The position numbers were made by a program, and so were the translations under genes. The notes beneath the pieces were generated by a model. The model saw only the letters and a program-made list of their open reading frames with translations, did no database searches and was not told where the DNA came from. This document shows positions 2,677 to 21,443 of a stretch of DNA of 21,443 nucleotides, piece after piece. Positions within the stretch are counted from its first letter, which is position 1; the number at the start of each line of letters is the position of its first letter. Where the stretch lies: positions 1 through 21,443 of IMG/VR virus record IMGVR_UViG_3300023174_006352. One strand, 5' to 3'. The DNA is from a virus.

Positions 2677-4203
2677 TTAAGGATATACTGGTGGTTGATA
2701 TACCCATGTACCAGATACATGTGCAACCCATCTCGTTTGATTGTCACCAAAAGAGCCGCCTACCACAGTAAATACGTGTGCAGGTGTAGTGTTTGTATTT
2801 ATTGCAAATGTAATTGTACCTGCAGCTGTTCCGTCTGTACCTATTGTTGTATTTACCAACAATTCTTCATTGTAGCTATTGGCTGCTAATTTTCTAACAA
2901 CCAATTTCGTTAATGAGTGTGAACAGTTACCTGAATCATCAAATCCAATGACTTGTATTGTTAATATTGCGGCCATGTCTTGACCAGGTACAAATAGTGA
3001 TGGTATAGATGAATTGCTAGTTGTGTAATTTACATGGTTGGGTGATAATACAACTTGGTTGCCATTTAAAGCAGTGCCGTACAACACATATTGAAAGTGT
3101 TGACCATCACCATTTGTAGTAAAATAATGACTAGCATATGAATACTGACCGTGCAAACGTGTACGTGCACCATAACCACCTGGAATTGTGGAGTAAGGAC
3201 CTGCAGCAATATTGGCATAACCGCCACCTATTGAAGCGAAGCCATCATTTGCAGTATTAGCATACCCACCAGCAATTGTTGCATACTGACTATTTACAGT
3301 ATTAACAAAACCACCTCCTACTGCAGCGCCGGTATTGAATGCATTATTTTGAAATCCTCCAGCTACAGTTGTGTAAAATGCACTTGCTGCATTTAGATAT
3401 CCACCACCTATTGAAGCGTATTGACCATTTGCAGTGTTTTGATACCCACCTGCTATTGTGGAATATTGACTACTTGAAGTATTACCTCCACCACCTCCTA
3501 CTGTACTATATTCATTTGATACTGTATTAGCTGCACCACCACCTATTGTACTATAATTACCAGATGCAACTTGAGTTGCAATATTTCTTATTTTTTGCCA
3601 GTCTGTTGCATATAGACCTCTCTTGTTGCCACCTGATACACCACTGTTTGGAATCTGTGCCAAGGTTGCACCAGTGCCTTTTGATACGATTGCAAAATCA
3701 GCATCATTTAATGGTGATATAATTGATAACGCATGTACACTAGTTGTGTTGTTGGGTGAAACTGTGGATGATAACTGCCTAAAAATGGTGAAACCATTGT
3801 TCCACACTGCAGAATTAGCACTGACTGTGGAATATGTACTCCGCCAGTTGGCACTTTGTGAGCTTACAGTAGTATATGTACTCTGCCAGTTGCCAGTCAA
3901 TGCTCTGACGCCTGTATCAATACCAGCGCCGCCAGATGCTGCACTCAATGCTGATAAACTAATGGTATTGCCATTGGAAATGGACAGTTGAGCATTGCTA
4001 GCATTGAAAGATAATGTTTGTGTCCAGTTGGCAGAGTTGGTTTGAACTGTAGAATAAACACCCAAACTCTTGTTCATTGCTGCAGTTGTAACTCTGCCAA
4101 ATCCATCAGCGCCAGACAATCCATTGTTCAAGGACACCAAAAATTGGTCTGTATTACCAACACTAGTTAAAGATTGCAATGCTGCAAAGTTTGTAAAAGA
4201 CAT
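2677..4203 (-). CDS. Tail fibre 1, YadA-like repeat adhesin
   Basis: Long Ser/Thr/Asn/Gly-rich protein of 508 residues from the ATG at 4203; another in-frame ATG lies two codons earlier at 4209. The inner start is preferred because it gives the N-terminus MSFTNF, matching MSANF of the paralogous fibre at 14509-16731, and because it leaves seven bases after the late box. Order (numbered from 4209): conserved attachment end (1-40, with SLNNGLSGADGFGRV); shaft repeats of the type YSTVxxxSAxW (about 51-136); collar KGTGATLAQIP to ATQVASG (177-217); about nine 15-residue YSTIGGG-type repeats (219-350), the YadA/hemagglutinin-head beta-roll pattern; then a globular tip ending in RWVAHVSGTWV. Probably trimeric and receptor-binding. 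It heads a transcript with the glycosyltransferase and sulfotransferase. The fibre call is firm; its position on the virion is not. Confidence 0.8.
   Translation of the reverse strand: MSFTNFAALQSLTSVGNTDQFLVSLNNGLSGADGFGRVTTAAMNKSLGVYSTVQTNSANWTQTLSFNASNAQLSISNGNTISLSALSAASGGAGIDTGVRALTGNWQSTYTTVSSQSANWRSTYSTVSANSAVWNNGFTIFRQLSSTVSPNNTTSVHALSIISPLNDADFAIVSKGTGATLAQIPNSGVSGGNKRGLYATDWQKIRNIATQVASGNYSTIGGGAANTVSNEYSTVGGGGGNTSSSQYSTIAGGYQNTANGQYASIGGGYLNAASAFYTTVAGGFQNNAFNTGAAVGGGFVNTVNSQYATIAGGYANTANDGFASIGGGYANIAAGPYSTIPGGYGARTRLHGQYSYASHYFTTNGDGQHFQYVLYGTALNGNQVVLSPNHVNYTTSNSSIPSLFVPGQDMAAILTIQVIGFDDSGNCSHSLTKLVVRKLAANSYNEELLVNTTIGTDGTAAGTITFAINTNTTPAHVFTVVGGSFGDNQTRWVAHVSGTWVYQPPVYP
3160..3555 (-). 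repeat. YadA-head-type 15-codon repeats in fibre 1
   Basis: About nine tandem 15-residue units, consensus Y(S/A)(T/S)(I/V)(G/A)GG-x-x-N-(T/A)-x-x-x-x. Central triplets often alternate GGG and AGG from unit to unit. This is the collagen-binding-head beta-roll pattern (Hep_Hag/YadA head) common in trimeric adhesins and phage fibres. Each unit would form one coil of a left-handed roll. The nucleotide copies are diverged, so the array is old or under selection rather than freshly expanded. Confidence 0.8.
3802..4059 (-). repeat. Shaft repeats YSTVxxxSAxW in fibre 1
   Basis: Three dispersed copies of a 12-residue motif (VYSTVQTNSANW, TYTTVSSQSANW, TYSTVSANSAVW), two of them closely spaced. The same motif recurs in fibre 2 at 15514-15684. 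It may form a trimeric stalk between the attachment end and the beta-roll. That role is inferred from position only. Confidence 0.6.
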
Positions 4204-4210
4204 ATGCATT

Positions 4211-4218
4211 TATTTATG
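4211..4218 (-). promoter_or_regulatory. T4-late-type promoter for fibre 1
   Basis: CATAAATA on the minus strand, 7 bases before the ATG at 4203. It matches the T4 gp55 late box TATAAATA at seven of eight positions. It is also flanked by a short inverted repeat (TGCAT/ATGCA). The predicted transcript would start within about two bases of the start codon. Confidence 0.65.
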
Positions 4219-4228
4219 CAATGGGCAG

Positions 4229-4256
4229 TTGAAAAACATTATTCATCAGCTATATT
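4229..4256 (+). promoter_or_regulatory. Sigma70-like promoter candidate for the nuclease gene
   Basis: TTGAAA at 4229-4234, a 16-base spacer, and TATATT at 4251-4256. No late box precedes this gene, which would fit early or middle expression from the host sigma factor. A start about 7 bases downstream would fall on the ATG at 4263. The match is moderate in A+T-rich DNA, so this is tentative. Confidence 0.35.
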
Positions 4257-4262
4257 GCATCA

Positions 4263-4979
4263 ATGCAACCAGAGATTACATTTGATGCTGAAAAGCACAA
4301 ATACTACAACAAGTTTGGAACAGAGTACATCAGCACGACTACTCTGCTCAATGAATATGTCAAACCCTTTGATACAGACAAGCATGCTGCACGCATTGCA
4401 GAAAAAAATGATACAACTCCTGAAGCCATCAAAAATATGTGGCAAGACATCACCAAACAAGCATGTGACAAAGGCACTGATATTCATGGCGTCATGGAAC
4501 AGTACATCAAAGATGGTACACATGCATCACATCATTTCAGCATGGTCAACAGCTTCAACAAAGCTGCAGAGTTCTTCAAACACTCCAAAATAAGCAGTGA
4601 AAAGCTGTTGTACAATCATGATGCAAGAATTGCAGGTACAACAGATGTGTGCTTGGAAGGTGCAGATGAATTTGCATTGATGGATTTCAAAACCAACAAG
4701 AAATTCACATATACCAGCAGTTTCAAAGAATTTTTGTTGCCACCACTGGATTTCTTGCATCACAGCAAGTATAATATATACACACTGCAGTTGAGCATAT
4801 ATGCATACATGTATGAACAACTCAGCAACAAAAAATGCGCCGGACTCAAAATTTTATATCTCAAAACCAATGCAGCCAACAGTAAATACTGGCAAGAAAT
4901 TCCTGCTGTCTACATGCGAGACACAGTTGAAAAGATTTTTACTCTCAGAAAACAACAAATACTAACACACAATGACTGA
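4263..4979 (+). CDS. PD-(D/E)XK nuclease (Cas4/RecB-like)
   Basis: 238 residues with a RecB/Cas4-type PD-(D/E)XK signature. There is an N-terminal GTDIH motif (H75), then E113 and the segment AGTTDV with D128. D141-F-K143 (LMDFKT) supplies the metal-binding acid and the catalytic lysine, and YTLQLSIYAY (Q176, Y180) is the family's QxxxY motif. Family members are exonucleases or end-processing enzymes; in T4-like phages such genes are usually assigned to DNA metabolism or host DNA breakdown. It starts divergently from fibre 1 and overlaps the next gene by 8 bases (ATG inside its last codons), suggesting coupled translation. Unlike its structural neighbours it has no late box. The fold is confident; substrate and polarity cannot be read. 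Confidence 0.8.
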   Translation: MQPEITFDAEKHKYYNKFGTEYISTTTLLNEYVKPFDTDKHAARIAEKNDTTPEAIKNMWQDITKQACDKGTDIHGVMEQYIKDGTHASHHFSMVNSFNKAAEFFKHSKISSEKLLYNHDARIAGTTDVCLEGADEFALMDFKTNKKFTYTSSFKEFLLPPLDFLHHSKYNIYTLQLSIYAYMYEQLSNKKCAGLKILYLKTNAANSKYWQEIPAVYMRDTVEKIFTLRKQQILTHND

Positions 4980-5376
4980 AATGAAAACTCAATTCAGATA
5001 TGAGGCTGATATGCCTGATTTCTGGAGACTTGTTGACAGCATCAACTGGACCAAGCGAGACAGTGCCACCATAGTCAAGGATGACTTGATGAAGCAATTG
5101 TCGCCAACTGCAGCACAAAAATACCACAGAATACTTTATGACTTGGCACAACACTTGTGTCATAAATTCATAGAGTACGCTATTGACAACAAGGAATCAT
5201 ACAATGCAGCTGATGCTTACTTTGCAGCATGCAACGTTGTAGGAGGTGGCAAGAGCAACTACTATGAATTTGATAAAGAAATCAAATATCTAGCCAGTGA
5301 AATTGAAAATCTCAACATGGATTGCTGCTTTGCGCACGCCATCCCAACTGACGACGACTACTTTTACGCAAACTGA
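4972..5376 (+). CDS. Unknown protein, weakly DUF4240-like
   Basis: 134 residues. The ATG at 4972 overlaps the end of the nuclease gene; a second ATG at 4981 is possible. It is mostly helical by composition. The pattern PDFWRLVDSINW near the N-terminus, LSPTAAQKYHRILYDLA in the middle and a later YFAACNVVGGG resemble the layout I recall for DUF4240 proteins (FW.LID, then L...L....F, then A..II.GG). That resemblance is weak and gives no biochemical function. Coupling to the nuclease suggests a joint role. The bidirectional terminator at 5401-5432 follows. Confidence 0.7.
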   Translation: MTEMKTQFRYEADMPDFWRLVDSINWTKRDSATIVKDDLMKQLSPTAAQKYHRILYDLAQHLCHKFIEYAIDNKESYNAADAYFAACNVVGGGKSNYYEFDKEIKYLASEIENLNMDCCFAHAIPTDDDYFYAN

Positions 5377-5400
5377 TTGAACATCATTGTTTTCTGAACA

Positions 5401-5432
5401 AAAAAAAAGGCGCTCTTAAGAGCGCCTTTTTT
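5401..5432. terminator. Bidirectional rho-independent terminator
   Basis: A perfect 18-base palindrome (5409-5426, GGCGCTC/TTAA/GAGCGCC) flanked by eight A on the left and six T on the right, so it works on either strand. It separates the convergent genes ending at 5376 (+) and 5452 (-). Confidence 0.92.
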
Positions 5433-5451
5433 ATTTCATTGTTAGTTGTTG

Positions 5452-6207
5452 TTAAGCAAACAAGTCTTCACCTGGTCTGTTGGTCTTGTTGCCTGGAGCT
5501 TTCATGTCTTGACCTGGCTTGCCCTTTTTGAGACCGCCACCTACACCAGCGTGACCATAGTCGCCATCATTGCCGACTTTGTCTGTTGCACCTGTAGCAG
5601 ATGCTTTGCCGCCGCGTGGTTGCAATTTAGCACCAACTTTGATGTTGCCTTTGCTGGTTGCAGCTCTTACTGCTGGCTCAGGATTCATTTCCTTGATGTC
5701 AATGCCTTCAAAAGCAAAGAGCTCTTCGTCTTCATCTTCAGGAATTTCTTCCTCAGAATCCATGTCAAAGTCTTCATCTTCTCCACCCAAGTCTTCATCT
5801 TCAATTTCCAAATCAACATCGCCACCACCCATGGCTGCCATGAGAATGTCGTGTAGTTTTTCGGCTACATCACGTGGAATGGAAATGGTAACTTCGTCAC
5901 CTCCCATGTCATCATCCATGCCGCCCATGTCATCACCAAGTTCAAGTGTGTCTTGGGGTCCCATGTCTCCACCCATTGGGGAAGCTGGGTCATTCATTAC
6001 GTCTTCAAACAGTTTATCAAAAAGAGATTTGTTGCTCATACGGTTATTTAGGAAGCCTGCATCTGTTTTTTCAGCGTAGGTTAGATTTTTTTCTGCTGTT
6101 GCAGGCTTTTTTGCATCTTGAGGTCCACCTTTGATGAGTTTGTTGGTTCCAAACTGTCTGAGTTTGATGGCTTTGCCAGATTTGAAGTTTTTAAATTTTT
6201 TGTTCAT
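5452..6207 (-). CDS. Acid-rich protein, possible prohead core/scaffold component
   Basis: 251 residues in three zones. Zone 1 (1-60) is basic (KFKNFKSGKAIKLRQFG). A short amphipathic segment follows (SLFDKLFEDVMND, 61-73). Zone 2 (about 80-170) is extremely acidic and Gly/Met/Asp-rich, with an embedded helix (VTISIPRDVAEKLHDILMAAM, around 106-126). Zone 3 (180-251) is basic and Gly/Lys-rich and probably disordered. T4-like prohead core proteins such as gp67 are similarly acidic and highly charged, and the gene has a perfect late box, so a capsid-assembly role is plausible. I do not recognise a family with confidence; a chaperone for a basic virion protein is an alternative. It is a single-gene unit between a late promoter and the terminator at 5401-5432. 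Confidence 0.75.
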   Translation of the reverse strand: MNKKFKNFKSGKAIKLRQFGTNKLIKGGPQDAKKPATAEKNLTYAEKTDAGFLNNRMSNKSLFDKLFEDVMNDPASPMGGDMGPQDTLELGDDMGGMDDDMGGDEVTISIPRDVAEKLHDILMAAMGGGDVDLEIEDEDLGGEDEDFDMDSEEEIPEDEDEELFAFEGIDIKEMNPEPAVRAATSKGNIKVGAKLQPRGGKASATGATDKVGNDGDYGHAGVGGGLKKGKPGQDMKAPGNKTNRPGEDLFA

Positions 6208-6213
6208 TTCAGA

Positions 6214-6221
6214 TATTTATA
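6214..6221 (-). promoter_or_regulatory. Perfect T4-type late promoter (acid-rich gene)
   Basis: TATAAATA on the minus strand, identical to the T4 late consensus, 6 bases before the ATG at 6207. It is back to back with a rightward box at 6230-6237. There is no Shine-Dalgarno sequence in the gap. Confidence 0.75.
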
Positions 6222-6229
6222 GTGTTGCA

Positions 6230-6237
6230 TGTAAATA
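6230..6237 (+). promoter_or_regulatory. Late-type promoter upstream of 6293 gene
   Basis: TGTAAATA, 8 bases to the right of the opposing box at 6214-6221, so the pair forms a compact divergent promoter. The predicted start, 5-6 bases downstream, falls on an ATG (6243) that opens a 9-codon reading frame. The first sizeable gene lies 55 bases away with its own ribosome site. Confidence 0.55.
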
Positions 6238-6242
6238 ATACA

Positions 6243-6272
6243 ATGCACAATCAAACAACTTTTAATAGTTGA
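6243..6272 (+). CDS. Possible 9-residue leader peptide
   Basis: The ATG sits exactly 5 bases after a late box, the same offset as at the sheath and GH19 genes. It encodes MHNQTTFNS and stops at TGA 6270-6272, 20 bases before the start of the 6293 gene. It may be a leaderless mini-ORF whose translation affects the downstream gene, or a chance ATG. No regulatory run of one amino acid is seen. Confidence 0.25.
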   Translation: MHNQTTFNS

Positions 6273-6280
6273 CAAGCAAC

Positions 6281-6286
6281 AAAGGA
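6281..6286 (+). promoter_or_regulatory. Shine-Dalgarno site deciding the 6293 start
   Basis: AAAGGA, 6 bases before ATG 6293. It is notable because almost every other gene here lacks a recognisable ribosome-binding site. Confidence 0.65.
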
Positions 6287-6292
6287 AATAAT

Positions 6293-6487
6293 ATGCCCAG
6301 ACTCACAACATATAGACTCAATGAAATTCTTGATGTAGGTGCACGCAATATACTAACAATATCAAGATTTGAAACTGCAACTGCTCATAGAATTTTAGAA
6401 GATGTGCAAATATTGGTTGATAGATTTCAGATGTATGTGTTTAATACCAAACCAATGTCCAGACAATACAAAGTTGTTAATAAATAA
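6293..6487 (+). CDS. Small unknown protein, 64 residues
   Basis: The start is the ATG at 6293, preceded by AAAGGA (6281-6286) with a 6-base gap. This is the only clear Shine-Dalgarno sequence in the window. An upstream in-frame TTG (6269) is possible but lies before that site and is rejected. The sequence is a helical, slightly basic protein (MPRLTTYRLNEILDVGAR...), soluble, with no recognised motif. Its last codons, AAT AAA TAA, contain the late box of the next gene. The position just upstream of tube and sheath suggests a small structural or assembly role, but nothing in the sequence shows it. Confidence 0.65.
   Translation: MPRLTTYRLNEILDVGARNILTISRFETATAHRILEDVQILVDRFQMYVFNTKPMSRQYKVVNK
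6479..6486 (+). promoter_or_regulatory. Late-type promoter overlapping a stop codon
   Basis: AATAAATA built from the final AAT AAA TAA of the 6293 gene, 7 bases before the ATG at 6494. It would drive the 57-residue gene, tube and sheath. Confidence 0.55.
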
Positions 6488-6493
6488 ATTGAT

Positions 6494-6667
6494 ATGAGAC
6501 CTTTTTCACGAAAAATATTGATGTGTGCACACTATGCTAGTCATGCTGCCAAGACTTTCAAGTTCATGGCAGAGTTACAACTGAATGCCAATTCTCCACT
6601 GAGCACATGGACTTATGATACCAACCAAATTGTAAAGTACATCTTGAAAGCAATCAAAAGAAAATAA
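6494..6667 (+). CDS. Small unknown basic protein, 57 residues
   Basis: Short frame beginning MRPFSRKILMCAHYASHAAK and ending KYILKAIKRK, TAA at 6665-6667. It is supported by the late box 7 bases before its ATG, by the tight packing between the 6293 gene and the tube gene (the tube ATG follows its stop by one base), and by a biased composition: Lys/Arg-rich ends, with TWTYD in the middle. It appears helical, with no signal or membrane segment. I recognise no family. Confidence 0.6.
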   Translation: MRPFSRKILMCAHYASHAAKTFKFMAELQLNANSPLSTWTYDTNQIVKYILKAIKRK

Positions 6668-6668
6668 T

Positions 6669-7244
6669 ATGCAGTCACATCTCAACAAAGCCCGTACAGA
6701 CAAGTTTACGCTGGTCATCAACATTCCTGATGCACTCAAAAACATCAACAGCAAATATGCACGCAGCAACAAGACCGTGCAATTGGATAGTTTGCAGTTT
6801 TCCATTTTTGGTGCTGTGGTGCCTGATACACAGGTACCAGCCATTGAAACCAAATGGGCTGGCAGCAACATCTACATCTCTTCTCATGCCAGACCACCTT
6901 ATCCACCCAGCACAGTAAATTTTACTGTAGACAATGAATTCAACAACTACTGGATTTTGTATCAATGGCTGAATCTCATGAGAGATGATAGAGAAGGAGC
7001 ATTTGGCGGCATCACTGATGCTCGTGATTTGATTTCACAAAAAGACATCATCAGTGTTGGCAAATACAGCACTACCTTTAATGTTTTTGGTAAAGATGAA
7101 TTTAACAATGATGTAATAAAATTTGAGTACTTCAATGCATTTCCTGTGCAATTGGGTGGTATCAATTACAATTATCAAGGCTCTGATCTCATCAATTGCT
7201 CATTTCAATTTGTTTATTCCAATATAAATGTGACGCTGCTTTAA
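6669..7244 (+). CDS. 19: Tail tube protein, gp19-like
   Basis: 191 residues; T4 gp19 is 163. Probable tail tube subunit, stacking as hexamers inside the sheath to carry DNA. The fold signs are a beta-rich N-terminal half, a central helix with the pattern FNNYWILYQWLNLMRDD (compare the HDARQKFVDW helix recalled in T4 gp19), and a C-terminal block YFNAFPVQLGGINYNYQGSDLI followed by CSFQFVYSNI, matching the family's G.WP..+G.L..D......TF.V.....Y ending. It lies immediately upstream of the sheath gene, one base after the 57-residue gene, without its own late box or ribosome site. The related tube-initiator gp54 shares the fold and is the main alternative, but its larger size and usual context argue for gp19. 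Confidence 0.75.
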   Translation: MQSHLNKARTDKFTLVINIPDALKNINSKYARSNKTVQLDSLQFSIFGAVVPDTQVPAIETKWAGSNIYISSHARPPYPPSTVNFTVDNEFNNYWILYQWLNLMRDDREGAFGGITDARDLISQKDIISVGKYSTTFNVFGKDEFNNDVIKFEYFNAFPVQLGGINYNYQGSDLINCSFQFVYSNINVTLL

Positions 7245-7261
7245 ATCTGCAGTTTGCATTC

Positions 7262-7269
7262 CATAAATA
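7262..7269 (+). promoter_or_regulatory. Late-type promoter of the sheath gene
   Basis: CATAAATA, 5 bases before ATG 7275. With T4 geometry the first transcribed base would be the A of the start codon. There is no ribosome site in the 30 bases before the start. Confidence 0.7.
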
Positions 7270-7274
7270 AATGC

Positions 7275-9764: not shown

Positions 9765-9780
9765 AAAGACAACAAATTGA

Positions 9781-9788
9781 ATTAAATA
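9781..9788 (+). promoter_or_regulatory. Late-type box inside the sheath terminator
   Basis: ATTAAATA, with the TAAATA at 9783-9788 overlapping the left arm of the hairpin at 9784-9807. A start near 9794 would give gp4 a leader of about 23 bases and would omit the left arm, so the new transcript could not form the terminator. The offset to the start codon differs from the other boxes, so this is uncertain. Confidence 0.35.
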
Positions 9789-9811
9789 GCGGGGCAACCC
9801 GCTATTTTTTT
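9784..9811 (+). terminator. Rho-independent terminator after gp18
   Basis: Perfect 10-bp stem AAATAGCGGG/CCCGCTATTT closed by a GCAA (GNRA) tetraloop at 9794-9797 and followed by further T residues to 9811. It lies 19 bases after the sheath stop codon. Confidence 0.9.
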
Positions 9812-9816
9812 GTACC

Positions 9817-10263
9817 ATGAGCAAGCACGCCCCATACAAGCAAGGACTTTACAAGCCAGTCAATGCACAGAAATACGTTGGCAATGGCATTCCAACATAC
9901 AGATCCAGCATGGAATTGCGACTGTTCAGATGGATGGATAAAAACGACAATGTAATCAAATGGAGCTCAGAGAGCATCATTATTCCTTATGTTAGTCCAG
10001 TGGATCACAAAGTTCATAGATACTTTGTGGACTGTGCCATTGTAATCAAGGAAGGTGAAAACATCAGGCATTACTTGGTGGAAGTCAAACCTTATAAACA
10101 AACACTCAAGCCTACTACACATGGCAACAAAAAGAAATCCACACTCATTTATGAGCAAGCAACTTATGACATCAACTTGGCCAAATGGGCTGCAGCAAGA
10201 GAGTGGTGCAGTAAAAAAGGTTGGGAGTTTTTGATACTGACAGAAAAAGAATTGCCTAAATAA
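9817..10263 (+). CDS. 4: Head completion protein gp4 (TnsA-like nuclease fold)
   Basis: 148 residues, very close to the 150 of T4 gp4. This family acts late in head maturation, after packaging. Recognisable are YKPVNAQKYVGNG near the start, YRSSMELRLFRWMDKN (E33), WSSESIIIPY, HRYFVDCAI (D72) and LVEVKPYKQT (E89-V-K91). E33, D72 and E89xK91 match the PD-(D/E)XK/TnsA-type catalytic layout. The C-terminal part has NLAKWAAAREWCSKKGWEF, typical of the family. It lies between the sheath terminator and the GH19 gene. No Shine-Dalgarno sequence precedes the ATG. Its final CCT AAA TAA forms the next gene's late box. Confidence 0.9.
   Translation: MSKHAPYKQGLYKPVNAQKYVGNGIPTYRSSMELRLFRWMDKNDNVIKWSSESIIIPYVSPVDHKVHRYFVDCAIVIKEGENIRHYLVEVKPYKQTLKPTTHGNKKKSTLIYEQATYDINLAKWAAAREWCSKKGWEFLILTEKELPK
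10255..10262 (+). promoter_or_regulatory. Late-type promoter overlapping the gp4 stop codon
   Basis: CCTAAATA from the last Pro-Lys-stop codons of gp4, 5 bases before ATG 10268. The 14 bases TAAATAACAACATG are identical to those at 14105-14118. Confidence 0.6.
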
Positions 10264-10267
10264 CAAC

Positions 10268-11287: not shown

Positions 11288-11302
11288 CTTTTGCAATGAT
11301 TT

Positions 11303-11310
11303 TGTAAATA
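11303..11310 (+). promoter_or_regulatory. Late-type promoter of the rhamnose cassette
   Basis: TGTAAATA, 5 bases before ATG 11316. There is no ribosome site in the interval. Because the following genes overlap by ATGA, this one box could serve at least four genes. Confidence 0.6.
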
Positions 11311-11315
11311 GTTGC

Positions 11316-13195: not shown

Positions 13196-13908
13196 AAGGC
13201 ATTGTTTTAGCAGGTGGCAAAGGCACCAGATTGTATCCTTTGACTCATGCAGTCAGCAAGCAGTTGCTGCCTGTTTACAAGAATCCCATGATTTATTATC
13301 CCATCATGACATTGCGTGACATGGGCATATCAGACATCATGATCATTACTACTCCAGAGCAATTGCCATTATTCAAACAAGCACTTGCTCATGTGACTCA
13401 AGTCAATTTGACATTTGAAGTTCAGCCAGAGCCTGCAGGATTGCCACAAGCATTCATCATTGCAGAGCAGTGGTTGGATGGAGATGATGTTGCATTGGTT
13501 TTGGGCGACAACATCATCATCAACAATGCAAAAATCAAAGCTAAAGTCAACAGCATTTATACTTTTGAAGTGACGCATCCAGAACGCTATGGTGTTGTCA
13601 AATGCAAACAAGGTTGTATTGATACCATTGTTGAAAAGCCACAGACATTTGTCAGCAATGATGCAGTCATTGGATTATATGTTTTCGACAATGCTGCATG
13701 CTACTGGGCCAAGCAATTGAAACCATCTGCACGTGGAGAGTTAGAAATAGTTGATTTAATCAAGACTATCAATGATATTAATGGTGTGTATGTACAAAAG
13801 CTAGACGGATTTTGGTTTGATGCTGGCAATCATGATGATTTGTTGGATTGTGCCAACTTGGTGAGAGCCATTGAACAACGCAGCAGCAAGAAATTTATAT
13901 TGCAATGA
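13192..13908 (+). CDS. rmlA: Glucose-1-phosphate thymidylyltransferase RmlA, short form
   Basis: 238 residues; the usual bacterial enzyme is about 290. It makes dTDP-glucose from dTTP and glucose-1-phosphate. The N-terminal signature is intact: LAGGKGTRLYPLT (6-18), SKQLLPVYKNPMIYYPI (22-38) with K23, and GDN (105-107). So are THPERYGVV, VEKP (147-150), RGELEI (181-186) and FWFDAGNHDDLL (207-218). Two contractions are seen: about a dozen residues are missing after GDN, and the chain ends just after AIEQRSSKKF. The ~40-50 residue C-terminal segment that in standard RmlA contributes to the oligomer interface and dTDP-rhamnose feedback site is therefore absent. The catalytic core looks complete. 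It overlaps both neighbours by ATGA. Confidence 0.92.
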   Translation: MKGIVLAGGKGTRLYPLTHAVSKQLLPVYKNPMIYYPIMTLRDMGISDIMIITTPEQLPLFKQALAHVTQVNLTFEVQPEPAGLPQAFIIAEQWLDGDDVALVLGDNIIINNAKIKAKVNSIYTFEVTHPERYGVVKCKQGCIDTIVEKPQTFVSNDAVIGLYVFDNAACYWAKQLKPSARGELEIVDLIKTINDINGVYVQKLDGFWFDAGNHDDLLDCANLVRAIEQRSSKKFILQ

Positions 13909-14111
13909 CACAAGTTCAAATATCATTTGGAGATGTAGAAATGTGGGCAGAATATGCTGCAAATCCAATCAAGTTCAAAAATGCACATGCACAAGAGCTC
14001 AAGTGCATGAAATCACCTCGCAAAGTTACTGAAGAACACATTGCAGAGTTCAACAAGAGATACAAGATAGTGTGGTACAGTGATGATTCAATACTTGTTG
14101 AGAATAAATAA
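13905..14111 (+). CDS. Small unknown protein, 68 residues
   Basis: It begins with an ATGA overlap on the rmlA stop codon and ends with AAT AAA TAA, which contains the late box of the next gene. The protein is a compact charged chain (VQISFGDVEMWAEYAANP... YKIVWYSDDSILVENK), probably helix plus a C-terminal beta hairpin. It has no signal peptide, membrane segment or recognised motif. Position makes it part of the rhamnose transcript, but nothing in it suggests a sugar enzyme. Confidence 0.65.
   Translation: MTQVQISFGDVEMWAEYAANPIKFKNAHAQELKCMKSPRKVTEEHIAEFNKRYKIVWYSDDSILVENK
14103..14110 (+). promoter_or_regulatory. Late-type promoter overlapping a stop codon
   Basis: AATAAATA from the last codons of the 13905 gene, 5 bases before ATG 14116. 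The following ACAAC spacer is identical to that at the GH19 gene. Confidence 0.6.
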
Positions 14112-14115
14112 CAAC

Positions 14116-14508
14116 ATGGACTACACACTACAGGCAATTTATGAGAACATGAACGTCATGGACCGCATTGAAACTCTCAATGATCAAGGCGATGTCAATA
14201 CCATGGGTACATATGGAGCCCCAGAAGAAGCATGTGAATCAGAACATGACCAGCATTTTGAACAAGAAGCCAACATGGCTGATTCAGCACTCATGGCCAT
14301 CCAAAAGCATGCACAATGCATTGCTACTGATATTCAACACATGCCACGCATTCCTGGTTGGGTTCAAGCCAAGCTTACCATTTGCTCTGAATACTTGAGT
14401 GATGTTGCAGACTTCGTAGATTATGAAGCACAAAAAATGCAGAACCAACAGTGTAGCATCAAAGCAGTTGTTATGACTGCTCCAGATGCTGCAGGTGTGT
14501 ATATGTAA
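14116..14508 (+). CDS. Unknown acidic helical protein, 130 residues
   Basis: It starts MDYTLQAIYENMNVMDR at ATG 14116, chosen over the in-frame ATG at 14080 because the late box lies 5 bases before 14116 and the longer version would overlap the previous gene. The first half is acidic and Met/Glu-rich. The second half contains RIPGWVQAKLTICSEYLSDVADFVDYE, a helical pattern (I/LPxWVQxKLTxAxxYLxxVADY) that I recall from small uncharacterised proteins of aquatic tailed phages. I know no function. A late promoter suggests a virion or assembly role. Its stop codon abuts the convergent fibre 2 stop codon with no bases between. Confidence 0.7.
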   Translation: MDYTLQAIYENMNVMDRIETLNDQGDVNTMGTYGAPEEACESEHDQHFEQEANMADSALMAIQKHAQCIATDIQHMPRIPGWVQAKLTICSEYLSDVADFVDYEAQKMQNQQCSIKAVVMTAPDAAGVYM

Positions 14509-16731
14509 TCAGAATTGCAAGAATTCAGCTTGAACACGAGCTGTCCAATAATGTGTTACAGTAGTTGGCGAATAAACAACAATACGTAATTTATCACCTG
14601 TAGCACTCATACTAGCATTCAATGTAGCTGGAATTCTCTGCGTTAAATCAGATGTTGTAGGGTAGACTGTAACAACACTAGAGCCATTGCATTTTGCAAA
14701 ACCGCGTAGAATGTAATGCAAACCAGATGAATTACTGTGTGATGATAGTCCTACAATGGTTGCTGTGTATGCATATGTTGAGTTTGGTGGTAAAGTGATT
14801 TCTTCTGTATTAGTAAGTCCATCTAAATATGCAACTGCACTACCAGCAGCATTTGTTGTTCTTCTAAACAGAAGTGTTGAACTTTTGTTATCACCATATG
14901 AACTAAAACTTCCACTACTAACAGCTAATTCACCGTAGTTGGTAGCATAAGCAGCAACACCAATGCTTGTTGAAAAGACACCACTTGCAACATTGTATTT
15001 ACCACCAACTACTGTTGAGTAAATACCACTAGATGCATTATTAGAACCACCACCAACTGTTGAATAATTTCCAGATGCAGTATTATCATATCCTCCTGCA
15101 ATTGTAGCAGAATTAGCAGATGCATCGTTACTGTATCCACCACCAACAGCTGCAAGATAAACTGCACTATTTGCAAAACCGCCTGCAATAGTAGATGTAA
15201 CACCAGATGCATTGTTAGCTGTTCCTCCGCCTACTGCTGCTGACTCTCCAGATGCTATGTTTTGAGTCCCACCAACTATCGTAGAATACTGTCCACTTGC
15301 AACCTGACTTGCATCTGATCTATACTTCTGTAAATCAGTTGCATATGCGCCTCTTGCATTGCCTCCTGCAATTGCATTGTCTGGAAATTGTGCAAGTGTA
15401 GCGCCGGTTCCTTTGGCTATCAGTGCAGCATCAATATTAGCATCAATGCCAATAGCTGATAATGCGTTTGTGTTAATTGCAGTGACAACATTAAAAGCTG
15501 TACTCAATCTGCTCCATGTTGCAGAGTTGGTTCTAGTTGTTGAATACACACTTGCATTGGATGCACTTTGCGTATTGAAGCTGCTGTAAACACTTGCATT
15601 GTTAGCACTCTGAGTACTCACTGTGCTAAACAATGGCAAAAGAGCTGCACTCTGGGTATTGACTGTTGCATAAGTACTATTCCAATCGGATGATGTTTTG
15701 CCACCAGCTGCAACTGAGTTTGCTGCAACTGTATTTGAAGTTACTGCATTTGCAGCAATGTTACCTGCTGTTGATAAATTTTGAACATACGTATAGTTGG
15801 CAGCAGGTGCTGTGATGTTGCTGCCAAAAATATTTACATTGGCTAGATTGCTATCATTGTTGCTGGTGCCCAGTATATATGATGTTGCATTTAATGCTGT
15901 ATTACTAGCACCTGCAATGATTCTTCCAGAACCAGACAAATTGCTAAATCCAGTAATGTCACCATTGTAAGCAAATGTAGTAGTTGCAATATCACTTCTG
16001 AGCACTGTAACAGGTTGGGCACCAGTTTGTCTCACAAAAAGTGCAGGTCCAATTCCATTATTGGTCACAGAGAGCGCACTAGTATTAGTAACAACAGAAT
16101 TGATAATTGTTGCTGACAATGCAGAGAGAGAGCCATTGACAAACAAGTCACCATTGACGGTCAGTGCATTGCCTCCTGTTCCATCAATGCGTTGATTACC
16201 ATTTACATACAAAACTTCACCAGCTGCAAAATTGTAATTTTGATTTATGTTGATGCCAACACTGCCTGCAGTTGTAATTCTGAACATGCTGGTCGTATTA
16301 ACTGGTTGAACTTGCACCATATCAGCCGTAGTAGTTGGATTTCTTTTGACTATGAACACTGGCAAATTGATACGAGTTGAGTCAAAAGGACCATTGATGG
16401 TCACATAATCAAACTCTTTAATACCAAAGTTAAAACCCTGACCTGTAACTGCAGTATATGCTGCATCCCACTGAGCACTATTGGAATTAGTCAGTGTAAA
16501 TACACCACTGTTGGCATTGACCTGTGAATATGCATTATCCCACTGTGCGCTCATTTGTTTGACCTTTGCATCAGATGCAGTCAAATTGGATGTAAAGACG
16601 CTGTTGAGATCAGAGATTTCTATGCGTGCAAAACCATCTGGCCCAGTTGCACCATTGTTTAAACGCAACATCATTTGATCAGCACCGTTGGCTGTATCAA
16701 CACTTTGTAAATCCGAAAAATTAGCAGACAT
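14509..16731 (-). CDS. Tail fibre 2, YadA-like repeat adhesin
   Basis: 740 residues, paralogue of fibre 1. The N-terminal attachment end (MSANFSDLQ... LRLNNGATGPDGFARI, 1-40) and the collar (AKGTGATLAQFP, then GAYATDLQKYRSDASQVASG, 439-480) match. Between them is a longer shaft with a segment VNGDLFVNGSLSALSA (192-207, typical of trimeric phage fibres) and YSTVxxQSA repeats (350-406). About seven or eight YadA-head repeats (482-590) follow, then a distinct tip of about 150 residues ending HYWTARVQAEFLQF. The tip differs from that of fibre 1, so the receptor may differ. It has its own late box 6 bases before the ATG. It follows the baseplate genes gp25, gp6 and the PKD protein, the usual place for tail-tip adhesins. 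Confidence 0.82.
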   Translation of the reverse strand: MSANFSDLQSVDTANGADQMMLRLNNGATGPDGFARIEISDLNSVFTSNLTASDAKVKQMSAQWDNAYSQVNANSGVFTLTNSNSAQWDAAYTAVTGQGFNFGIKEFDYVTINGPFDSTRINLPVFIVKRNPTTTADMVQVQPVNTTSMFRITTAGSVGININQNYNFAAGEVLYVNGNQRIDGTGGNALTVNGDLFVNGSLSALSATIINSVVTNTSALSVTNNGIGPALFVRQTGAQPVTVLRSDIATTTFAYNGDITGFSNLSGSGRIIAGASNTALNATSYILGTSNNDSNLANVNIFGSNITAPAANYTYVQNLSTAGNIAANAVTSNTVAANSVAAGGKTSSDWNSTYATVNTQSAALLPLFSTVSTQSANNASVYSSFNTQSASNASVYSTTRTNSATWSRLSTAFNVVTAINTNALSAIGIDANIDAALIAKGTGATLAQFPDNAIAGGNARGAYATDLQKYRSDASQVASGQYSTIVGGTQNIASGESAAVGGGTANNASGVTSTIAGGFANSAVYLAAVGGGYSNDASANSATIAGGYDNTASGNYSTVGGGSNNASSGIYSTVVGGKYNVASGVFSTSIGVAAYATNYGELAVSSGSFSSYGDNKSSTLLFRRTTNAAGSAVAYLDGLTNTEEITLPPNSTYAYTATIVGLSSHSNSSGLHYILRGFAKCNGSSVVTVYPTTSDLTQRIPATLNASMSATGDKLRIVVYSPTTVTHYWTARVQAEFLQF
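14962..15288 (-). repeat. YadA-head-type repeats in fibre 2
   Basis: Tandem 14-15-residue units of the type YSTIVGGxxNxASGx, the same beta-roll pattern as in fibre 1. Unit lengths are less regular (14 mixed with 15), closer to the classical 14-residue YadA head repeat. Confidence 0.75.
15514..15684 (-). repeat. Shaft repeats in fibre 2
   Basis: Successive units TYATVNTQSA, LFSTVSTQSANNA, VYSSFNTQSASNA and VYSTTRTNSATW. They share the YSTVxTxSA core with the shaft repeats of fibre 1, but are contiguous and four in number. Confidence 0.65.
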
Positions 16732-16737
16732 ATGAAT

Positions 16738-16745
16738 TATTTATC
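16738..16745 (-). promoter_or_regulatory. Late-type promoter of fibre 2
   Basis: GATAAATA on the minus strand, 6 bases before the ATG at 16731, in the 52-base gap after the PKD-protein gene. No other signal is seen in that gap. Confidence 0.65.
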
Positions 16746-16783
16746 AGCTGGCACTGATTAACAATTGCAAGTTTACATTAAAG

Positions 16784-19048
16784 TCAGATTAATGCTAAAT
16801 CTGCACTCAAAGTATTCATTAGCAATGTAGATGCACCATCATCCAAGTAGAAAAATCCTAGTGTTGCATAACCAGGTAGAGCATCAATGGATTCATCATC
16901 AAACAACTGCAAACCTGCAGCAATCTTGTATTGCAACATGTTGTCCATGATGCCACCATTGCTGGTCCACTGTGCAAAGCTGCTCTGTGTTTCACTTAAA
17001 GTATTGTTGTTGTTACTCCAATCAATGATGCCTTCCAACTGAGCATTTTGTGCTGTAGTTTTGTATGAATAAAAAATGTAATAATCCTCTACATTGATGT
17101 TGGTCTTGTCTTGTGGTAAAACCAAAGGCCATCCCCACTGATCTAAATAGTTCACAACATCACTAAGCAGATATGTTTGATAACTTGGAAGGTATGATGC
17201 TGGAACCCAAAGACCATCACTGCCTCTATACACAGGAATATTGGTATTGCACAACACATATTTGCCACTGAATCGTTCATATGCAACAATGTATGCTGCG
17301 TCACCTGTACCAAATGCACTGAGGCTAGCTGTTGCAAAGTCAAGTTTTTGTCCTAGATTTCTGCCGTAATATTCATTGTTTACATAACCTAAACTTTCAA
17401 AGTTTTGTTTGTAAATGTTGCGAGATCCCCACAATTTGCTGTGCTTGATGCTGCATAAATCCATTTGTGTTCTCAAATCAGAAGGTGCAGCAAATTTCAG
17501 TGAGTCAAAATGTTGCAAGCTCTCTCCAGCCATCTGATACATGCTATCCAATGCATCAATGTTGCATTCATCAATGCTGACATTGTTGGCTACAAAGTTA
17601 GCAGTTTTTTCATATATTCTTTTGCCCAATGCATTGTTGTCTGCAGATGCATCACCCAAAATTGGACCCAAAACAACATCAAAGAATTGATCTGTATTCT
17701 GCAATGATTCTTGGAATCTGTAGCTTTTGATGGTTGATAAGTAGTCAAAATCTTCATTGAATTTGTTGGCTACATAAACACCAGCATTGCTGTAAACATT
17801 GAATTCATTGGATGTTCCTTGAATTGTTGCAACAGTGCCTTGTGTTGTAGTCATATTACCATATGCACTCAAATACAAATTGTTTGCTACAAATGGAACT
17901 GTAACATAGCCTCTGAAGAAGCCACCACGAGGATAAAATTGCAAATTGCCAAAATCACTGCGAACAATGCATTGAGCAACAGCTTCAGAGCCACTCATGA
18001 CTGCAACAAATACTGTGTTGTTGACTATGCTGCTGATAGCAGCAACTTGTGAAAGCTTGTAACCATTTTTAACAGCATCATTGTTGCTGTTGGTTGCACG
18101 CACAACAAATGGTATTTTGGCATCTACATAGTTGTTGCTGTTGATGGTGAATGCAGAACCAATGTGGTCAATGCCATTGCTGGAAAATGTCAGCTTTTGT
18201 GCAGCATTGGATGATACAGTGTAGTACATGGTATCTGCAGCCATTTGCAATACACTGTATTGAGGATACAGTTTGCTGCTCAATTGAGCAGTTTGCAAAT
18301 CAACAAATTTGCTGGTATCAAATTTGACAGATACAATGGGATGGCCTGGCAAATCATCTACATAGTAAATGGTTGCAATGCCACTGGATCCAGCAAAAAT
18401 GCTGCCTGCATCTGTTTCAAGACAGTTGATGATGTTAGTACCGCTGAGTTTAACATAAATGCTCTCATCTGTTGTAGTGATGCTGTCAACGCAATTGTAA
18501 TCAACTGCACCAGTTGGCAATGTCACAGGCTGTAAAAATTTACTGACTGTTTGCAAGTGTACATCTGCATCTTGCAAAAATGATGCTGCATCAACAAAAC
18601 TGCTTGCTGACTCATCAACACGCAACTGAATAACTGGCTCAGTTGGTTGATTTTGCCATGTGTTGTATCTGGTGATGATCAGTGGATTTGCAATTGTGGA
18701 TGCAGTCAACTGTGTGCTGGTTGCTGATAAAACAATGTTGTCTGCAACGTAATTGAATACGCTCAATGTTTGTATGTTGCTGCTGTAAACTGCATTGGCA
18801 CTGCTGTACATGTACAGAGTTGCATTGTAGTTGCCAGGCATGCTGTAACTGTGTTGTGCAGTCAGTGCAGTTGAAGTAGCACCATCGCCAAAGCTCCACA
18901 AAATTCTGGTATCAGACAAAAATGCAAATGCACTGTTGTTGAATGTGAATGTAAAAGGACAAATGCTGAGAGAGTAACCAGTCAGTGCTGCAATGCCAGC
19001 AAAGTTGGTTACAGCAAAGTCAAATGGAATGGGTGTTATATAACTCAT
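16784..19048 (-). CDS. Baseplate-type structural protein with N-terminal PKD domain
   Basis: 754 residues. Residues 45-85 carry a PKD-domain signature: ILWSFGDG (W51, FGDG 53-56), then HSYSMPGNY (66-74) closing the Ig-like fold. PKD domains commonly bind carbohydrate or other surface proteins. The rest (beta-rich to about 420, then mixed) is unfamiliar. Features include FNEDFDYLSTIKSYRFQESLQ at about 430-450, CSIKHSKLWGSRNIYKQNF in the C-terminal half, and LDQWGWPLVLPQDK. It starts with an ATGA overlap on the gp6 gene and is read after gp25 and gp6. In T4, gp6 is followed by gp7, a large wedge protein, so a gp7-like role is the best guess from position. I could not align it to gp7 from memory. 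Confidence 0.75.
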   Translation of the reverse strand: MSYITPIPFDFAVTNFAGIAALTGYSLSICPFTFTFNNSAFAFLSDTRILWSFGDGATSTALTAQHSYSMPGNYNATLYMYSSANAVYSSNIQTLSVFNYVADNIVLSATSTQLTASTIANPLIITRYNTWQNQPTEPVIQLRVDESASSFVDAASFLQDADVHLQTVSKFLQPVTLPTGAVDYNCVDSITTTDESIYVKLSGTNIINCLETDAGSIFAGSSGIATIYYVDDLPGHPIVSVKFDTSKFVDLQTAQLSSKLYPQYSVLQMAADTMYYTVSSNAAQKLTFSSNGIDHIGSAFTINSNNYVDAKIPFVVRATNSNNDAVKNGYKLSQVAAISSIVNNTVFVAVMSGSEAVAQCIVRSDFGNLQFYPRGGFFRGYVTVPFVANNLYLSAYGNMTTTQGTVATIQGTSNEFNVYSNAGVYVANKFNEDFDYLSTIKSYRFQESLQNTDQFFDVVLGPILGDASADNNALGKRIYEKTANFVANNVSIDECNIDALDSMYQMAGESLQHFDSLKFAAPSDLRTQMDLCSIKHSKLWGSRNIYKQNFESLGYVNNEYYGRNLGQKLDFATASLSAFGTGDAAYIVAYERFSGKYVLCNTNIPVYRGSDGLWVPASYLPSYQTYLLSDVVNYLDQWGWPLVLPQDKTNINVEDYYIFYSYKTTAQNAQLEGIIDWSNNNNTLSETQSSFAQWTSNGGIMDNMLQYKIAAGLQLFDDESIDALPGYATLGFFYLDDGASTLLMNTLSADLALI

Positions 19049-20874
19049 GCAGCGTCTATTACTTTGATTTGAGAATCCAACAATTCAGGTTGATACAAAT
19101 ATGGATACATGAAATACTGCAGTTGTTTGTTTTGTGTTTGCAAAGCAACGTCATTGTTTGGATACAATGGATTCCAAGTCAAAAAGCTGATGCCTGGAGT
19201 TGATATTTCAGTACCATCTACTGTACGCACAGTGTTGATGGCACTGACGCCACCAATGTTGAGCAATGTCAAGGAAAGTTGTGTCAAATTGATGGATTGA
19301 CCCAATGCATTGTTGCTGCTGGCAAAAAAGTCTACAATGGCATTTTTGACTGCTGACTTGATTTGATTGGTACTGGTCTTTAGTGCAGCATCTCTGGTAA
19401 CAACCAAAGAACTCTGAGCCAATAAATCTGTGGACAAGGTCTCACCAGGCAGTGCAGTTGCAACAGCATATGCTCTATAAACAGGATCACTGGGTATTAC
19501 TTCTACATTGGCCAAGCTCTGATTGCCCAATTGATTGATCATCAACTGTTTGAGAGATGCAGACAACAATTGTGGCTCAGCATTGTTGAGCAAATACAAG
19601 TTGGGTACAACAAAGCAGTAGACATTGTTGAAATCACATGCATCGTAGAAGTTGACTTGATTCAACAAGATGCCAGCATCATCATTAGGTTGATTGAGTC
19701 CAATGTCATAAAAATATTTGACATACTCTTCAACATACAGTTTGTTGTTAACAGTTTTGCTGGATATAATGATGTTGGCAAAATTCTTCGCAACAAACAA
19801 ATCAAAATCATTGGTTGTTACAATTCTGTTCTGAGAAGCAAACAATCTAGGTGCATTGGTTCTGATGTCTTGCACACTTTCCATGAGTTTGGGTTGAGTG
19901 GATTGAGCAGTGTTGATGATGGTCAAATATGCCAATTGCTGTGGTGTCAAATAGTTGGAATCAACAGAAGTTGTATCTGCATTGATGGCTCTCAACTTGC
20001 TGGTGTTGAGTTCAACAAAATTGCCTTGCAGTGTACTGCTTTCTATGATGCCATTGCGACCATTGCTGACCAAATAGTAGATGGCAATTTCTTCATTGGC
20101 TAACAGTTGACGTCCAAATATACCATCCCCAAATTTGATTTCATATCGGCCGTTCTCATTGAATCTGCGTTCAAAAGCTTTAGTATTGGCTTGTGACAAA
20201 TACAAGGAAGATGTTTCCAAGTACTGATACCATTTGTTGTCTGTATTCTCTTTGACATATACAAAAATATTGTTGTTGTCAATGAATCTTTCTTGAGTTG
20301 GCTGCGCATCTGTGTTTTCATCCACAATGGTGAATGTTTCAAATGGTTGTCCAATGGCAAACAGTGCATCATATTCTGCAAACTGTCCTTGATACAACAA
20401 ACTCTGACTACCAATGCTGTCAATGGTTTCAGAGCCAGCAGAAGTCTTTTCAAAGTAAATATCATTGGCAATGGAGTAAATGGTACCGCCGCTGTTGATG
20501 AAAGAAAACTGTCGCAATGCATAGTTGCCCATGGACAAATCTGGAGATGCAACAGCACTCATGGATACAATGCTGGTTTGTGGGCCAGTGGGCTTGTAGC
20601 CAATGAGATTCACAATCTTGTTCATGTTCTCATAAATTTCAGCTTGACTGAAGTAACTCTCTGCACTTTGTTTGTTGAGGTAAAACAACAATGTATGGTA
20701 TGAATATGCAAGAATATCAATGAGTGAACTCAAGTTGCTGCCTTCAAAAAACTGGTCTGTAAATTGACCAGAATTGCGCAGCCTTTGCAACATAAATGCT
20801 TTCATGCTCTGAGCATCAAAAGATGCATAAGCATTTTGTGGCAAGTTGAATTCTGTGAGTGTAGAGTTAGACAT
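19045..20874 (-). CDS. 6: Baseplate wedge protein gp6
   Basis: 609 residues; T4 gp6 is 660. It is the core wedge subunit that dimerises to form the inner ring of the baseplate and belongs to the baseplate-J-like family. The N-terminal block is characteristic: MKAFMLQRLRNSGQFTD, then SLIDILAYSYHTLLFYLNKQSAESYFSQA and NMNKIVNLIGYKPTGPQTS. The middle has RYEIKFGDGIFGRQL, the FGDG.+G turn of the family, and RLFASQNRIVTTNDFDLFVAKNF, the (A)..R.VT..D+ motif. It starts 3 bases after the gp25 stop codon and overlaps the PKD-protein gene by ATGA, so the three are one translational unit. There is no ribosome site of its own. Confidence 0.9.
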   Translation of the reverse strand: MSNSTLTEFNLPQNAYASFDAQSMKAFMLQRLRNSGQFTDQFFEGSNLSSLIDILAYSYHTLLFYLNKQSAESYFSQAEIYENMNKIVNLIGYKPTGPQTSIVSMSAVASPDLSMGNYALRQFSFINSGGTIYSIANDIYFEKTSAGSETIDSIGSQSLLYQGQFAEYDALFAIGQPFETFTIVDENTDAQPTQERFIDNNNIFVYVKENTDNKWYQYLETSSLYLSQANTKAFERRFNENGRYEIKFGDGIFGRQLLANEEIAIYYLVSNGRNGIIESSTLQGNFVELNTSKLRAINADTTSVDSNYLTPQQLAYLTIINTAQSTQPKLMESVQDIRTNAPRLFASQNRIVTTNDFDLFVAKNFANIIISSKTVNNKLYVEEYVKYFYDIGLNQPNDDAGILLNQVNFYDACDFNNVYCFVVPNLYLLNNAEPQLLSASLKQLMINQLGNQSLANVEVIPSDPVYRAYAVATALPGETLSTDLLAQSSLVVTRDAALKTSTNQIKSAVKNAIVDFFASSNNALGQSINLTQLSLTLLNIGGVSAINTVRTVDGTEISTPGISFLTWNPLYPNNDVALQTQNKQLQYFMYPYLYQPELLDSQIKVIDAA

Positions 20875-20876
20875 AA

Positions 20877-21380
20877 TTAGACAAAATAGTATCCATTGGC
20901 ATTGAGATAGGTTTTGATGATGTATTCATCAACTCCAATGAATGGGATAGCAACATCGATATTTATCTCATATTGACTGTTATCATAATCAGGAATCACA
21001 GTGACTTCATTGACAATGATGCGAGGTTCAAAAATAGTGAGATTGTTGAGCACTTGATTTTGAATGATAGTTGCAATGCCATCTGATACTGCTTCAAACA
21101 AATAATCACGCAAATCAATTCCAAATTCAGGATTCAAAATCTTTTCACCTGGTGATGTTAAAAACATATTAACGATGCTGTTGCGAATGGCACCTACATC
21201 ATAATTAGCTTTGAGGTCAGTTATCTGGCTGGGCTTGAAAAGCTCAATGTCATTGAGTTGTGCAAAATTATCAGACAAGTCCAAATCAACAAAAATAAAC
21301 TGCTCATCCTGTCTGGTTTGTGGTGCAGGAACGCGCAGAATAGGCTTTACTTGTTGAAAATTTACATTAATATTGGCCAC
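20877..21380 (-). CDS. 25: Baseplate wedge protein gp25 (lysozyme-like wedge family)
   Basis: 167 residues; T4 gp25 is 132. Wedge protein that joins the central hub to the wedge beside gp6 and gp53 and nucleates sheath assembly. DVGAIRNSIVNMFLTSPGEKILNPEFG (61-87), with its LNPEFG motif, is diagnostic of the GPW/gp25 family. The following DLRDYLFEA and C-terminal ..YEINIDVAIPF fit as well. The start is a GTG at 21380: the next in-frame Met is at residue 72, inside the conserved block, and a late box lies exactly 5 bases before the GTG. About 35 extra N-terminal residues distinguish it from T4. It heads the gp25-gp6-PKD transcript. Confidence 0.9.
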   Translation of the reverse strand: MANINVNFQQVKPILRVPAPQTRQDEQFIFVDLDLSDNFAQLNDIELFKPSQITDLKANYDVGAIRNSIVNMFLTSPGEKILNPEFGIDLRDYLFEAVSDGIATIIQNQVLNNLTIFEPRIIVNEVTVIPDYDNSQYEINIDVAIPFIGVDEYIIKTYLNANGYYFV

Positions 21381-21385
21381 ACTCT

Positions 21386-21393
21386 TATTTAAG
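21386..21393 (-). promoter_or_regulatory. Late-type promoter of the gp25-gp6 operon
   Basis: CTTAAATA on the minus strand, 5 bases before the GTG at 21380. It faces away from a second box at 21404-21411. AAGAG lies in the gap but is too close to the GTG to serve as a normal ribosome site. Confidence 0.65.
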
Positions 21394-21403
21394 CACCAGG
21401 ATG

Positions 21404-21411
21404 CATAAATA
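21404..21411 (+). promoter_or_regulatory. Late-type promoter of the rightward gene at the window edge
   Basis: CATAAATA, 7 bases before ATG 21419. It is divergent from the gp25 promoter with only 10 bases between the two boxes, like the pair at 6214-6237. Confidence 0.5.
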
Positions 21412-21418
21412 ATCTGTA

Positions 21419-21443
21419 ATGAATCACAAGTTTTTACCTATAG
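21419..21443 (+). CDS. Start of a rightward gene (cut by window end)
   Basis: ATG followed by codons for MNHKFLPI, open to the window end. It is called only because a late box sits at the same distance as at the fibre 1 and 6494 genes and because leftward gp25 begins 39 bases away. Product unknown. Confidence 0.4.

Follow-up and report, generated by a model that had tools for sequence, protein, structure and literature searches.

Gene content and relatives of the window

The virus record IMGVR_UViG_3300023174_006352 is a 21,443-base stretch of DNA (the window, analyzed here at its full length) that stands alone, without a larger parent genome, and in it the hexamer TAAATA, which is the core of the T4 late promoter, recurs immediately before start codons. 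Its genes match PHROGs families for tail sheath, tail tube, gp4-type head closure, exonuclease, and endolysin, as well as for sugar-nucleotide genes and for gp6-type and gp25-type baseplate wedges. Based on the matches to tail, head-closure, and baseplate genes, we conclude that the window comes from an uncultured phage of the T4 superfamily and covers only part of its genome. An Rfam search of the window gave no match, and the phage collection that we searched contains no cultured phage with more than 60% identity to the head closure, sheath, gp6, or gp55 proteins of this clade.

Three near relatives (L001, L003, and L009) have ~90% DNA identity to the window. In a head-closure tree, the window clusters with L001, L003, L013 to L016, L020, L021, and the large relatives G001 (126.8 kb) and G002 (148.8 kb) with support of 95/93, and the Pelagibacter phage HTVC008M is placed outside this group. 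We claim no host from gene content: the matches to the dTDP (deoxythymidine diphosphate)-sugar gene are only ~50% and are spread across phyla, and WhiB, a marker of actinophages, is absent in 24 records.

TAAATA boxes at a fixed distance from start codons

The ten TAAATA boxes that an initial annotation of the window had listed were all located, with spacers between box and start codon of 5 bases (n = 5), 6 bases (n = 2), and 7 bases (n = 3) (Table 1). The full TATAAATA is present in 1 of these 10 near boxes (6214-6221). For the start at 4203 there is an alternative in-frame ATG two codons upstream, at 4209; because it precedes the predicted +1, 4203 is the start that such a transcript would use. 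Every window box that L001, L003, and L009 cover is kept at the same spacing, with changes to some of the spacer letters, and the gp25 gene has its box at an offset of 5 bases in G001, G002, and HTVC008M as well.

Table 1. Promoter-like and ribosome-binding signals near start codons in the window
Feature	Positions	Strand	Distance to start	Gene or remark
Late box TAAATA	4211..4216	-	7 bases before 4203	Tail-fiber-like gene 2677-4203
Late box, core of TATAAATA	6214..6219	-	6 bases before 6207	
Late box	16738..16743	-	6 bases before 16731	Same in L003 and L009, one spacer letter changed
Late box	21386..21391	-	5 bases before 21380 (GTG)	gp25-like baseplate wedge gene
Late box	6481..6486	+	7 bases before 6494	Open reading frame (ORF) of 57 amino acids
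Late box	7264..7269	+	5 bases before 7275	Tail sheath gene
Late box	10257..10262	+	5 bases before 10268	Endolysin gene; conserved in L001 and L003
Late box	11305..11310	+	5 bases before 11316	Nucleotide-sugar epimerase; L003 has the same box and spacing with other spacer letters
Late box	14105..14110	+	5 bases before 14116	ORF of 130 amino acids; conserved in L003
Late box	21406..21411	+	7 bases before 21419	L009 counterpart of ~206 amino acids, function unknown
Distant late box, core of TGTAAATA	6232..6237	+	55 bases before 6293	5 bases before mini-ORF 6243-6272
Shine-Dalgarno-like AAGGA	6282..6286	+	Precedes 6293	Sole clear one in the window
Sigma70-like promoter TTGAAA-N16-TATATT	4229..4256	+	-10 ends 6 bases before 4263	Exonuclease gene; 10/12 consensus letters

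TAAATA occurs 29 times in the window, compared with an expectation of 13 ± 3, and lies at an offset of 5 to 7 bases from 10 of the 22 called starts versus 4 of 1140 other ATGs. When the 60 bases upstream of each start in the curated list of 22 starts were dinucleotide shuffled, the mean number of starts with a box at 5 to 7 bases was 0.075 and the maximum was 3 (20,000 shuffles), which agrees with the expectation that a box at so fixed an offset should be rare by chance. (A simple gene caller recovers only 7 of the window boxes, since it omits genes that are short or truncated and chooses a different ATG for 4203.) In an unbiased scan of the hexamers 5 to 7 bases before ATG, TAAATA ranks first in the window and in every group of relatives tested.

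The initial annotation had named a lack of genome-wide enrichment at this offset as grounds for rejecting its reading; in the relatives the enrichment is present, and the reading withstands this test. TAAATA lies 4 to 7 bases before 30 of 135 genes in G001 and 37 of 135 in G002, while shuffles give 1.1 and 1.7, respectively; T4, S-PM2, and Cr30, controls of similar composition, have none at these offsets. A scan for the clade's gp55 gave 80 loci, of which 77 were kept after removal of contigs that had already been used, and these were split into group A (42 loci) and group B (35 loci). Group A has a near box at 87/477 starts (16, 26, 26, and 19 at offsets 4, 5, 6, and 7), and group B has one at 48/242 starts (0, 40, 8, and 0). 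All of these counts are gene based, since raw counts of the pattern TAAATA-N5/6-ATG that ignore ORFs are too noisy. Cyanophage-like contigs have a peak at offset 21, but it was rejected as a genome-wide feature, since it comes mostly from one orthologous gene in contigs that were all picked via the same locus.

Identity of the probable late promoter

Among the orthologues compared in G001 and G002, near boxes are confined to late genes: 12 of 20 late orthologues have one versus 0 of 20 early orthologues (P = 2e-5; one early gene is split in two in this comparison). The late orthologues with a near box include those for portal, terminase, sheath, tube, protease, gp25, gp13, and gp15. Both genomes encode a homologue of gp55 (phrog_234; 1.7e-26 in G001 and 7.7e-27 in G002) that has diverged from that of T4, and the base before TAAATA is mostly A or C, as in TATAAATA. 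The rank of the hexamer, its association with late orthologues, and the gp55 of the relatives are all consistent with the proposal that the boxes are gp55-type late promoters.

The major capsid gene, gp23, is an exception among the late genes. In G001, G002, L013, and L015 (gp23 genes on L091, L100, L013, and L015), it has no near box and is preceded by an AAGGAG- or GGAAAGG-type sequence. Since gp23 keeps a Shine-Dalgarno-like sequence, the host ribosomes are probably able to use Shine-Dalgarno sequences.

Predicted transcription start and absence of Shine-Dalgarno sequences

Because the T4 late box lies at -13 to -6 (PMC1524935), +1 falls on the sixth base downstream of it. Among boxes with long leaders, this position holds a purine in 77% of cases for T4, in 79% and 87% for two collections of cyanophage-like contigs, and in 77% for SAR11/OM43 phages. 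In clade genes with an offset of 5, the fifth base is T in 71%, and the sixth, A or G, opens the start codon. Given an initiator purine at base 6, a 5-base spacer would set +1 on the A of the ATG and leave no space for a ribosome-binding site, and the original suggestion that box placement puts +1 on the start codon is therefore consistent with this register.

None of the 67 near-box genes of G001 and G002 has a Shine-Dalgarno sequence before it, and the counts are 1 of 87 in group A and 0 of 48 in group B, so that the lack of such sequences first noted in the window extends to its relatives; this is what would be expected if the leader were absent. The gene at 6293, correctly singled out earlier as the only one in the window with a clear Shine-Dalgarno sequence, provides a contrast, although a single case, in that its box is 55 bases away. 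The mini-ORF 6243-6272 (+ strand), with 9 codons and a box at an offset of 5 bases, ends 20 bases before this gene and is possibly a leaderless leader peptide.

Sigma70-type early promoters with matching geometry

Genes without a late box frequently have TTGA...TATAAT near the start. We scored sigma70-like sites as TTGxxx-N16-18-TAxxxT with at least 8 of 12 consensus letters. Such sites end 5, 6, 7, and 8 bases before the start of 4, 18, 6, and 3 genes, respectively, in G001 and G002 taken together, where 0.23 are expected per position; the SSB gene of both genomes is among these cases. No such spacing peak is found in T4 or S-PM2. Group A has 41 sites at a spacing of 6 versus 0.47 expected, and group B has 6, 8, and 8 sites at spacings of 6 to 8 versus 0.22 expected, with smaller peaks elsewhere.

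The canonical sigma70 -10 hexamer occupies -12 to -7. A sigma70 -10 element thus needs 6 bases to +1 and a gp55 box needs 5, which are the two modes found. As the early promoters end 6 bases before the ATG, the arrangement is not restricted to late genes, and the clade seems to rely on leaderless mRNA as a rule, early and late alike. The initial annotation had seen in the boxes a distinct design for late expression; this is not borne out, because the sigma70-type early promoters share the matching geometry.

Leaderless mRNA as the preferred reading

The sequence itself shows the identity, spacing, and conservation of the boxes, the gp55 of the relatives, the lack of Shine-Dalgarno sequences, and the initiator register. 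The best reading, to which we give a probability of roughly 0.87, is that the near gp55 boxes produce leaderless late mRNA and that the sigma70 early promoters of the relatives share this placement. The first gene of each late transcript would then be carried on a leaderless mRNA whose 5'-terminal AUG is bound by a 70S ribosome, the genes behind it would mostly be reached through overlap or coupling, and a few genes, such as gp23 in the relatives, would retain a Shine-Dalgarno sequence. In the relatives, host sigma70 early promoters set likewise would make leaderless initiation the usual mode for first genes, both early and late. We also consider it likely, with rather less confidence, that a widespread uncultured branch of T4-like phages uses leaderless initiation by default, early (host sigma70) and late (gp55), with each spacing exact for a +1 on the AUG, and that it has largely abandoned Shine-Dalgarno sequences, presumably suiting host ribosomes proficient on leaderless mRNA. 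We infer that the host tolerates such messages.

Several points weigh against this reading. The +1 position and leaderless translation are both predicted from promoter geometry, and some genes may carry an extra upstream promoter that yields a leader. The codons found at an offset of 5 before longer ORFs are ATG (109), GTG (18), CTG (4), and TTG (2); GTG thus makes up ~14% of these starts, and a GTG start is weak on leaderless mRNA in Escherichia coli (PMC9031893). No gp55 is found in the 21-kb window, which is a fragment; gp55 lies outside it. Of the companion proteins that the initial annotation had proposed to look for alongside gp55, the gp45 clamp was found in G001 (3.9e-13) and not in G002, and the gp33 family was found in neither genome, although diverged small proteins can escape such a search. 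With gp33 not found and gp45 found only in G001, gp55 may act differently here than it does in T4.

One alternative is that TAAATA is not a promoter but a translation initiation signal, an A/T-rich ribosome contact in a host that makes no use of Shine-Dalgarno sequences. Shine-Dalgarno sequences are indeed missing before near-box genes and before most of the remaining genes in these phages, and some near-box genes lie tightly against the gene upstream. However, the near boxes mark late orthologues and no early ones, the same hexamer farther upstream in T4 is a known late promoter, gp55 is present in the relatives, and the early genes have a bipartite sigma70 pattern whose spacing differs from that of the boxes. 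We regard this alternative as improbable.

A second, marginally less probable alternative is that the boxes are true late promoters of mRNAs with ordinary leaders, either because translation really begins farther into the ORFs or because transcription comes mainly from other promoters upstream. The start codons are predictions, and 4203 has an alternative ATG. However, coding constraint begins at the predicted ATG: the proportion of changed codons that are synonymous is similar in codons 2 to 6 (46%) and in codons 7 to 15 (41%). Moreover, the next in-frame ATG has essentially no Shine-Dalgarno sequence before it (2/78 versus 9/169 for an out-of-frame control). Hidden downstream starts are therefore unlikely. 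In HTVC008M, 15 of 15 near-box starts as we called them are the starts in the public annotation (compared by eye). Finally, although TAAATA is frequent in the window, whose A+T content is 61%, chance or base composition is a negligible explanation given the shuffles, the replication in independent contigs, and the controls of similar composition without near boxes.

Leaderless mRNAs in phages are usually regarded as exceptions, and here an entire phage clade is seemingly built on them. A switch from Shine-Dalgarno leader to leaderless mRNA would be visible among relatives that have the same late promoter, providing a clean comparative system for how the placement of promoters has evolved jointly with translation initiation. 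Efficient leaderless initiation, a trait of the host, would be predicted from phage sequence alone, and the calling of start codons in metagenomic phages would improve.

Additional features of the window and its relatives

G001 encodes a tRNA with anticodon CAT (L097:793-868) in which, on our reading, bases 1 and 72 form a C x C mismatch and a purine at 11 pairs with a pyrimidine at 24. Both features are typical of initiator tRNA, but the full three G-C pairs of the anticodon stem are lacking. Extra initiator tRNA has been reported to raise leaderless translation (PMC9031893). Relatives also carry a one-piece transfer-messenger RNA (L286:596-1050 and L288:2242-2682, both on the - strand; Rfam RF00023, E values of 2e-41 and 2e-46) with unusual tag peptides.

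In the window, the hairpin at 9782-9816 on the + strand (AATAGCGGG/CCCGCTATT, with a T run) resembles a terminator; it ends within a few bases of the gp4 start at 9817 and overlaps a TTAAATA box. The two fiber-like genes (2677-4203 and 14509-16731, both on the - strand), each headed by a near late box, have common repeats of the type YSTIGGG/VASGxYST, which are like trimeric adhesin heads.

Comparison with known systems

The clade shares with T4 and cyanophage S-PM2 the TAAATA core, late structural genes behind it, a gp55 homologue (in the relatives), and a purine six bases downstream of the box; the NATAAATA late promoters of S-PM2 are the counterpart of the gp55-dependent promoters of T4. 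In contrast, the boxes of T4 and S-PM2 are mostly 9 to 39 bases upstream, and the genes with those boxes have a Shine-Dalgarno sequence in 21 of 30 cases (T4) and 8 of 33 cases (S-PM2). The initial annotation was thus correct that the geometry differs from that of T4.

HTVC008M, a cultured Pelagibacter (SAR11) phage, has the near-box geometry in part of its genes. It has ~15 near-box genes, 12 of them with a box exactly 5 bases before the ATG, including gp25, gp2, gp4, and gp3, and a Shine-Dalgarno sequence precedes 1 of 15 near-box genes compared with 11 of 16 distant-box genes. However, many of its genes are Shine-Dalgarno led (60 of 134 without a box), so that leaderless and Shine-Dalgarno late genes would be mixed in this phage. 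The near boxes in Mosig (4) and in the Methylophilales phage Melnitz (2) are within the shuffled range. HTVC008M, Mosig, and Melnitz (NC_020484, MT647606, and MZ577097) also encode ribosomal protein bS21, which is ruled out as the cause of the trait by its absence from G001 and G002. In cultured T4-like phages, leaderless messages thus appear to be absent or limited to a minority of genes. We found no earlier report of leaderless T4-like late genes in a survey of mostly open literature, which is a weak sign of novelty.

The late promoters of phiKZ, which are used by a phage multisubunit polymerase, have the motif TATG, with its last base, G, as +1 (PMC4666361). As in the clade, the promoter motif overlaps the transcription start and resembles a start codon; unlike what is predicted for the clade, the AUG is not kept in the mRNA, since +1 is the last base of the motif. 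Another parallel is with the leaderless TA-led genes of Actinobacteria and Deinococcus (PMC3160421) and of Caulobacter (PMC4117421), in which the -10 element lies ~12 bases before the start and there is no Shine-Dalgarno sequence. Leaderless bacterial genes have previously been called from this -10-to-start geometry (PMC3160421), and the sigma70-like sites described here, with a spacing of 6, likewise place the first T of TANNNT at -12. The TA-led bacterial genes use the cell's own sigma factors, whereas here the late sigma factor of a T4-like phage would have the same geometry.

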